A stretch of 64,000 bases of DNA. Source: Methanomethylovorans sp. PtaU1.Bin093 (lineage in GTDB: Archaea > Halobacteriota > Methanosarcinia > Methanosarcinales > Methanosarcinaceae). The notes under the pieces were generated by a model. It searched no databases and had not been told where the DNA came from. It saw only the letters and a list, made by a program, of their open reading frames with translations. A program made the translations under genes and the position numbers. The stretch covers positions 1 to 64,000 of the forward strand of contig NZ_MVQX01000073.1 of NCBI RefSeq assembly GCF_002067275.1, given 5' to 3'. Shown here piece by piece: positions 42,200-44,393 of this stretch (the first letter of the stretch is position 1; each line of letters starts with the position of its first letter).

Positions 42200-43456
42200 A
42201 TGGAATTGCAAATGAAAAAAGTGATCGTTGTACAGAGGGTTGATCCGGGAAGTGATGAGCTCAAGAACAAGAGGCAGCTAACTGAGCTGAAGGAACTGGC
42301 GTATGCTGCCAATTACTCTGTAGTGGGCGAGGTTATTCAGTCCCGTTATCCGGATAAGAAATACCAGCTGGGCAAGGGCAAGGTACAGGAGCTTGCATTG
42401 GCTGTAGGATCCCTTAATGCCGAAAAAGTGATCTTCTGCAATGAACTGAGCAGTATGCAGCTGTACCACATCACAGATATATGCAAATGTGCGGTCATTG
42501 ATAAGTTCCAGCTTATCCTGGAGATCTTTGCGTTGCGAGCTACCACACGGCGCGCCAAGCTGCAGGTGGAGCTGGCAAGACTTGAGTATGAGATCCCCAG
42601 GGCAAGGATCATTGTGTCCCATCTCAAAAAAGAAGAAAGGCCAGGCTTTATGGGACTGGGGAGCTATGAGGATTCCTATGAGCAGGACATAAAGGGCAGG
42701 ATAGCCCGCATAAAGGATGAGCTAAGCCATGTGCAGAGCCACAATGACTCCCTGCGCAGTTTCAGGCACGCTCATGGTCTATCCCTCGTGGCGCTTGCGG
42801 GCTATACCAATGCCGGAAAAAGTACGCTTTTCAATTCTCTGATGGATGAGGGTGTGGATGTGGCAGATATGCTTTTCACGACCCTCTCTCCGGTCGCCCG
42901 TTCCATGGATGTCATGGGGCGTAAGGTCATTCTCACTGATACGGTAGGTTTCATTGAGGACTTGCCCCACTGGCTCATCGATGCCTTCCGTTCGACGCTG
43001 AACGAGATATTCCTTGCAGATATCATTTTGCTGGTAGTGGATGCAAGTGAACCGCTGGACATAATGCACGGTAAGCTGCTCACATGTCATGACACTCTCT
43101 GGGAACAGGTACATGGAGCATCCATGATCACGGTAATGAACAAAACAGATCTTATCAGCCATGAAGACCTCAATGGGAAAATGGAAGCTCTTGGGTATCT
43201 TGTTCCGAACCCTGTTCTTATATCTGCGAAGACAATGAAAGGCCTGGATGAACTTAGGCAGGCGATAAGGGATAAGCTGCCGGTATGGAAAAGGAAGGAA
43301 ATATCAATGCCTCTTTCCGAGCATTCAATGTCGGTGCTCTCCTGGCTTTTCAAAGAAGGTGTAGTCCATTCGGTGAAATATGCTGACCAGATACTCGTGG
43401 ACCTGGAAGCAAGGGAAGAGGTGATGAATAAGATACAATCGTTTTCAGCTAAGTAA
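42200..43456 (+). CDS. hflX: Ribosome-associated GTPase HflX
   Basis: 418 residues. The N-terminal HflX domain (GKGKVQELALAVGSLNAEKVIFCNELS), a coiled linker (ELARLEYEIPRARIIVSHLKKEERPGFMGLG), then the G domain with G1 GYTNAGKS, G3 DTVGFIEDLP and G4 NKTD. HflX binds the 50S subunit and splits stalled ribosomes. The start is ATG at 42200, or ATG at 42212, which gives the usual MKKVIVVQRV. Confidence 0.93.
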   Translation: MELQMKKVIVVQRVDPGSDELKNKRQLTELKELAYAANYSVVGEVIQSRYPDKKYQLGKGKVQELALAVGSLNAEKVIFCNELSSMQLYHITDICKCAVIDKFQLILEIFALRATTRRAKLQVELARLEYEIPRARIIVSHLKKEERPGFMGLGSYEDSYEQDIKGRIARIKDELSHVQSHNDSLRSFRHAHGLSLVALAGYTNAGKSTLFNSLMDEGVDVADMLFTTLSPVARSMDVMGRKVILTDTVGFIEDLPHWLIDAFRSTLNEIFLADIILLVVDASEPLDIMHGKLLTCHDTLWEQVHGASMITVMNKTDLISHEDLNGKMEALGYLVPNPVLISAKTMKGLDELRQAIRDKLPVWKRKEISMPLSEHSMSVLSWLFKEGVVHSVKYADQILVDLEAREEVMNKIQSFSAK

Positions 43457-43504: not shown

Positions 43505-43513
43505 TTTATATAA
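43505..43513 (+). promoter_or_regulatory. TATA box of candidate small RNA
   Basis: TTTATATAA at 43505-43513. Archaeal initiation about 25 nt downstream of its centre would fall at 43533-43536, exactly where the 5' arm of the stem begins. Confidence 0.6.
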
Positions 43514-43533
43514 CATGGAGTATGTTAGTAAAC

Positions 43534-43620
43534 ATGCGAACGGGTCTCTTCTCAAATGTACCACCAATCCTATCCAACCACCCAATACACAACTCCTTTA
43601 ACCCGTTCGCTTGCTTCTTT
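43534..43620 (+). ncRNA. Candidate small RNA: 10-bp closing stem with large C-rich, G-poor loop
   Basis: GCGAACGGGT (43536-43545) pairs perfectly with ACCCGTTCGC (43601-43610). The 55-nt loop contains only one G and is rich in C and A (ACCACCAATCC, CCAACCACCC, AACTCCTTT), so it should stay single-stranded. AACTCCTT and CCACC are complementary to Shine-Dalgarno sequences. A TATA box stands at the right distance before the stem, and TTGCTTCTTTT follows as a likely T-rich terminator. It lies in the 259-bp gap between hflX and the PHP gene. Known M. mazei regulatory RNAs use C-rich loops to block ribosome-binding sites; whether this is a homologue is not known. Confidence 0.6.
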
Positions 43621-43715
43621 TAATGAAGGACCATTTATCTTGTCCTTATAACTTTTGGCCTTATTATCGTAAGCCATACAGACATTTTATAAGGAATAAT
43701 TTTTAATCTGAGTGT

Positions 43716-44393
43716 ATGAAATTCGACCTGCATGTCCATACACGTTTTTCTAAAGACAGTGATGCAGATATTGACGCGATCATCCACCATGCCAAAGAGA
43801 ATGGCCTCGATGGTTTTGCAGTATGTGATCATGATGTGATCGAAGGAGGTCCTTTTTCTGTGCAGCGGGCAGCCGAGCTAGGCTCTGATCTTGTGATCAT
43901 TCCGGGCGTTGAAATAACCACTTCCGAAGGGCACCTGCTTGTGCTGGGCATAAAGGAAAGCATAGAACCTGGCTTATCGCCGGCTGAAACCATACGAAGG
44001 GCACGGGCCCAGGATGCGTTGGTAATATTACCCCATCCTTTCAAGATCACATCTCATGGCATAGGATATGTGGAAGGTCTTGATGTGGACGCTGTGGAAG
44101 TTCTTAATTCACGGTGCCTTACGGATGGTCCTAATAACAAGGCGCGTGCCACAGCAAGTTCTCTGGGGCTTGCTCAGGTTGGTGGCAGTGATTGCCATGT
44201 GCCTGAAATGGTGGGCATGTCATATACTGAGATAGATGTAGATGTGCAGGAACGATCATTAGAGGCTGTCCTGGGCGCTATCCGGCAGGGCAGGGTAAGA
44301 CCCGGTGGCGGTAAAACCCCCAAGGTCTTTGTGATACGCCAGATGATGAAGAATGCAAAAAAGAGAACTGCTAAAGCATTGAAGCTGGGCTAA
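43716..44393 (+). CDS. PHP-domain phosphoesterase
   Basis: 225 residues. PHP metal-binding motifs: FDLHVHTRFSKDS, VCDHDVI, LPHPFK and GGSDCHVPEMVG. Stand-alone PHP proteins of this size hydrolyse phosphate esters or nucleotides; the substrate is unknown. A TATA box close to the ATG suggests a leaderless message. Its stop overlaps the convergent DUF447 gene by a few bases. Confidence 0.88.
   Translation: MKFDLHVHTRFSKDSDADIDAIIHHAKENGLDGFAVCDHDVIEGGPFSVQRAAELGSDLVIIPGVEITTSEGHLLVLGIKESIEPGLSPAETIRRARAQDALVILPHPFKITSHGIGYVEGLDVDAVEVLNSRCLTDGPNNKARATASSLGLAQVGGSDCHVPEMVGMSYTEIDVDVQERSLEAVLGAIRQGRVRPGGGKTPKVFVIRQMMKNAKKRTAKALKLG

Follow-up and report, generated by a model that had tools for sequence, protein, structure and literature searches.

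What is encoded between the hflX-type GTPase gene (42200..43456, + strand; Pfam GTP-bdg_N, MMR_HSR1, and GTP-bdg_M) and the PHP-domain protein gene (43716..44393, +; Pfam PHP and PHP_C) of Methanomethylovorans sp. PtaU1.Bin093, two neighbours whose synteny is conserved? The question comes from a preliminary description of a 64,000-nt stretch of contig NZ_MVQX01000073.1 (hereafter the window), which had placed there a candidate small RNA with an anti-Shine-Dalgarno loop. Its parts are present in the sequence: a TATA box (TTTATATAA, 43505..43513, +), kept in orthologues and located 31 nt before the stem; a perfect 10-bp closing stem at the expected start, whose 5' arm (GCGAACGGGT, 43536..43545, +) and 3' arm (ACCCGTTCGC, 43601..43610, +) are backed by both fold and covariation; and a 55-nt loop (43546..43600) with a single G, two CCACC-type tracts, and AACTCCTT. 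The T-rich end is also present, as a presumed termination region (43611..43624, +), but is modest in the window copy; across 75 family members, the 30 nt 3' of the stem are 46% T.

The bounds of the small RNA core, 43534..43613 (+), were taken from two covariance models, R1 and R2, and its transcript ends are predicted. The window contains a single R2 match, which scores 74.9 bits (E 9e-21). A start-site or promoter-proximal element with a GTTWGT core (43521..43535, +) is conserved in the genus and resembles a block in Methanolobus and Methanosarcina copies. The loop opens with a pyrimidine tract (43546..43554, +), where the window copy has UCUCUUCUC at the position of the U-tract of other members, and continues with a near-invariant, C-rich and G-poor core (43555..43588, +) comprising AAATGTACCACCAATCCTATCCAACCACCCAAT and its neighbours. 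The AACTCCTT region (43591..43598, +), which had been singled out as the anti-Shine-Dalgarno element, is not conserved outside the genus.

The window contains five perfect 10-bp inverted repeats whose loops measure 30-80 nt, against 4.0 in shuffles, and the stem of the RNA by itself is at chance level and unremarkable. A repeat of this type whose loop has at most one G (or at most one C) is found once in the window and in none of 60 shuffles, and the predicted fold of the RNA (-18.3 kcal/mol, z -5.6) is equalled by none of 200 shuffles. The near absence of G from the loop, taken together with the comparative evidence, is not at chance level, and the decisive evidence is all comparative.

A BLAST search with 161 bp of the window locus recovered the RNA from each of the five remaining genomes of the genus, with 90-94% identity, and from Methanolobus with about 80%. 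The position between hflX and PHP holds the RNA in at least six genera, with copies in six genomes of the Methanomethylovorans clade, in Methanolobus, Methanosarcina (L019), and Methanococcoides, and in two further genera, represented by G008 and by G030 (placed there by hflX). The syntenic copy at L181 presumably belongs to M. burtonii. Among these orthologues the flanks vary, but the stem and some 30 nt of the loop have hardly changed; the loop core (43555..43588) is identical across the Methanomethylovorans clade and nearly identical in Methanolobus despite diverged flanks.

The RNA extends far beyond this locus. At E <= 1, 88 of 112 genomes from the taxonomic family gave matches to model R1, often two to four each. 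Model R2, built with the other four families left out and used at a cut-off of E <= 0.01, matched 164 of 186 Methanosarcinales genomes, covering all five families and 25 of 27 genera, with usually three to five copies per genome. Only seven of about 170 genomes drawn phylum-wide from outside the order passed E 0.01 (best 7e-4), weakly and at chance level, so that the stronger matches are confined to Methanosarcinales. Members from the four families left out of model building have a TATA-like box upstream and a U-tract, and in most of them the 3' arm is preceded by a shared core, CUAACCCCCACUCCCC. The genome of the window itself holds further candidates at C13:110678-110745 (-), C59:48322-48378 (+), and, weakly, C59:48520-48575 (+), all three with the CCCCCACUCCCC core. 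Rfam 15, at both gathering and permissive thresholds, returned no match for the window RNA or the examined paralogues, and no order-wide family with such a covarying stem was found in Rfam or in the literature searched. In Methanosarcina, two or three members stand in tandem within about 1.3 kb (L177, L178, L179, L180, L175, and L176), the loop of one of them repeating a CCCCAACUAUU unit.

Stem covariation was followed in two alignments, A6 (51 sequences) and A8 (60 diverse members from the five taxonomic families). Double, compensatory changes affect five of 10 stem pairs in A6 and seven of nine in A8; the paired substitutions in these alignments include C-G to U-A in 25 sequences, G-C to A-U in 26, and G-C to A-U at the outermost pair in 12. 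In A8, 99.8% of the stem cells are paired, a figure that leans high as this alignment was partly gathered by a model that rewards the stem; with the partner slid by one to three columns, 29-50% are. In the set gathered within the genus by plain BLAST the stem is unchanged, and the more distant changes are compensatory. Family stems are 9-10 bp long with arms 33-77 nt apart, and the loops they enclose contain 4% G and 37-38% C, with a U-tract of at least four residues in 49 of 60. The preliminary description had named the stem and G-poor loop of related genomes as its touchstone and a covariance search across Methanosarcinales as the means of finding them; both elements are present in relatives, with compensatory stem changes and a recurring C-rich, G-poor loop.

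Promoter position is also shared. In 50 of 75 members, a crude consensus scan put the start of the best TATA box 28-33 nt ahead of the stem's first base. In Methanolobus, start sites have been mapped about 19-22 nt downstream of the promoter elements (PMC5378194); with that spacing, transcription of the window RNA would begin right at the stem, at about 43533-43536. Taken together, the orthologues, the covariation, and the order-wide matches strongly support the view that this stretch is a real, independent, conserved, and structured small-RNA gene, and the RNA probably regulates other genes.

How such an RNA might be built and work can be outlined. Its own TATA promoter would drive an independent gene, giving a transcript of some 80-90 nt that would start at the stem or within about 2 nt of it. 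The 9-10-bp stem would then join both RNA ends and display an unstructured loop. The compensatory substitutions, and the existence of a subfamily with an unrelated stem, are consistent with the stem being a scaffold, and the loop, in which C-rich, G-free stretches follow a U-rich or pyrimidine tract, would be the working part. The comparisons show the conservation, the structure, the promoter geometry, the independent genes in varied surroundings, and the multiple copies. Action of the loop in trans is a proposal: short C-rich seeds might pair with G-rich ribosome-binding sites on several mRNAs, so that these are translated less, and an Sm-like (SmAP/Lsm) protein may sit on the U-tract. The subfamily in question was found in genome G084, which we take to be Methanolobus psychrophilus R15: five strong copies (C1: 69758, 351373, 561345, 2838636, and 2877684) combine an unrelated stem, AGGUGUGUGU/ACACACACCU, with the same loop modules, UUUUCUACCACCAACCCCCACUCCC. 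This presence of the same modules on different stems suggests that the loop carries the function. Sister-subfamily RNAs lie at L231 1473-1537 (+), L257 1481-1539 (-), and L259 1475-1525 (+).

Our best guess for this function, to which we give a probability of about one half, is that of a trans-acting RNA that would mask purine-rich translation starts. Pairing through short seeds is kept as the most likely mode of action by analogy with the sRNA162, sRNA154, and sRNA41 of M. mazei. In sRNA162, an unstructured region covers a ribosome-binding site in trans (PMC3510493); for sRNA154 and sRNA41, the same is reported of exposed segments (PMC11456600, PMC5867862). Pairing of the window loop was calculated for 390 predicted start regions (from 400 kb of genome G005 and the window) versus coding controls; the start codons came from a simple prediction rule, which limits the power of the test for individual genes. 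The loop preferred start regions by a difference of -2.44 kcal/mol, whereas random intergenic segments of the window gave -0.25 +/- 0.85 kcal/mol and none of 60 reached the value of the loop. However, 68 of 80 dinucleotide-shuffled loops did as well as or better than the real one, and the paralogues behaved in the same way. The idea of an anti-Shine-Dalgarno loop thus holds insofar as ribosome-binding sites are preferred over coding sequence, but this preference is a composition effect that shuffled loops share. The C-rich, G-poor bias suits purine-rich start sites; the conserved order of the bases is left unexplained by composition-based pairing.

For the proposed control of several mRNAs by the loop, target prediction in start regions and antisense searches yielded no conserved target. 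In six genomes, when at most three mismatches were allowed, the only complement of the 23-nt loop core was the gene itself; the complements of the order-wide cores CCCCCACUCCCC and, at zero mismatches, GGGGAGUGGGGG are nearly absent outside the RNA genes of the genomes searched and almost confined to these genes, respectively. The most striking individual match, GGATAGGAGTGGTGG (L268 362-380), lies directly before the start of M. hollandica pylC and is complementary to the window loop at 14 of 15 positions. As a target, pylC was rejected: the genome of the window has a weaker match, G002 has lost most of it, and Methanolobus has none.

Conservation of base order is better accounted for if the RNA is a sponge, whose C-rich loop motifs would bind, and thereby titrate, a single-strand RNA-binding protein of the KH, TRAM, or cold-shock type. 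The conserved loop blocks are longer than pairing requires, the modules ACCACCAA and CCCCCACUCCC recur on different stems, and CCCCAACUAUU is repeated several times in some Methanosarcina copies; the absence of long complements from the searched genomes and the performance of shuffled loops in pairing with ribosome-binding sites point the same way. The protein partner is putative, however, the loops of paralogues differ considerably in the order and spacing of their motifs, and the characterised small RNAs of the same archaeal family work by pairing. We regard titration as a tentative second choice. In its fullest form, which seems to us somewhat doubtful, the family would be an archaeal counterpart of protein-titrating RNAs, ancestral and order-wide, in which the modules UUUUU...CUAACCCCCACUCCCC and ACCACCAAUCC are the candidate protein recognition site, presented on varied scaffold stems by several copies per genome.

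The preferred reading, a trans-acting RNA that pairs with translation starts, supposes a gene that stands alone, and the position of the RNA, 105 nt upstream of the PHP-domain gene on the same strand and in conserved synteny with it, could also be that of a cis-acting 5' leader. The PHP-domain gene has its own TATA box (43685..43692, +), 31 nt before its ATG and kept in relatives, and in G008 several hundred additional nt separate the RNA from the beginning of the PHP gene. Paralogues occur between topoisomerase VI B and a clamp-loader-like AAA gene (RFC large subunit), next to Mrp antiporter and RuBisCO genes, or beside pyrophosphatase and MacB-type permease genes, and are frequently antisense to both neighbours. 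Given the separate, conserved TATA box and the copies antisense to both neighbours, the RNA is not the leader of one particular gene, and a leader function at the PHP locus is very improbable.

Even less credible is a dual-function RNA that would encode a small protein, as proposed for M. mazei sRNA154. A 29-codon ATG frame (43534-43623) begins right at the expected start, and small ORFs have been detected by Ribo-seq in small RNAs of M. mazei (PMC11456600). This frame is broken by 1-nt length differences among orthologues of the same genus, which adjoin the 3' arm, and G033 has TTG in place of the ATG, in keeping with the initial remark that no frame here is protein-like. An operator or mobile-element end acting as DNA can practically be dismissed, since the arms, although inverted repeats that are invariant within the genus of the window, stand 33-77 nt apart at a fixed place behind a TATA box and enclose a strand-asymmetric, G-poor loop with a T-rich 3' side.

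With a predicted promoter of its own, a conserved structure, and no coding capacity, the RNA is, on sequence grounds, an archaeal intergenic small RNA. It shares this kind, and the order of its host, with sRNA162, whose reported homologues are limited to M. acetivorans and M. barkeri and whose 191-nt primary transcript forms three stem-loops and a linker (PMC3510493). The window family has instead a single closing stem (in about 80 nt) and one G-poor loop, and is order-wide and multi-copy; identity of the window RNA with sRNA162 was rejected on comparing its one stem with the published description of three stem-loops plus linker in about 190 nt. Both sRNA154 and sRNA41 are small RNAs of the same archaeal family. 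The former differs in being nitrogen-regulated and in having two loops, and one Methanosarcina member of the present family may be sRNA41. In M. psychrophilus R15, nine cold-induced "cold box" small RNAs have been described that are multi-copy and conserved and share a motif upstream of their promoters (PMC5378194). The R15 genome holds four members of the present family and five strong copies of the sister subfamily, and the latter are possibly part of the nine, copy number and genome being compatible with this but proving nothing. Coordinates of members of the present family in G084 include C1 948154-948240, 1262975-1263050, 2721950-2722007, and 2751038-2751102.

Bacterial RNAs offer parallels for both modes of action. 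The UCCC-loop small RNAs of Staphylococcus pair through C-rich single-stranded loops with the G-rich Shine-Dalgarno sequences of many mRNAs; the loops are alike, but there is no homology, and targets have been shown there whereas pairing is a candidate here. CsrB and RsmY titrate the CsrA protein through GGA motifs in hairpin loops, and likewise expose repeated short motifs, which in the present family are C-rich and gathered in one large loop, the protein being putative.

The best-known archaeal regulatory RNAs come from one genus (three species for sRNA162), and here a covariation-supported, multi-copy family, missing from Rfam, spans an order that includes major methane producers. The family occurs in Methanosarcina, a genus with established genetics, and is a direct test case for whether archaeal small RNAs act by pairing with mRNAs or by capturing proteins. 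The alignments and covariance models suffice to annotate it across the order.

Control of the family itself may involve an inverted repeat, TTCGT-N6-ACGAA, which directly precedes the TATA box of the hflX-PHP copies of Methanosarcina, Methanococcoides, G008, and G030, and of a second Methanolobus copy; it is missing from the window copy. When 17 genomes were searched for the exact pattern, 11 matches came up, seven of them exactly 47 nt from a family RNA, and the repeat is likely the operator of an archaeal regulator. It was seen 47 nt upstream of the RNA at L165, L166, L181, L173, L174, and L222, and is nearly specific to promoters of the family. The repeat also occurs in M. psychrophilus R15 (L370 1501-1518; G084 C1:1611616), before a gene starting MKEEESHGIVRQRLAEKMAGEITLSEKPGEALKKWR whose product has a helix-turn-helix-like reading and could be an autoregulated regulator of these small RNAs.
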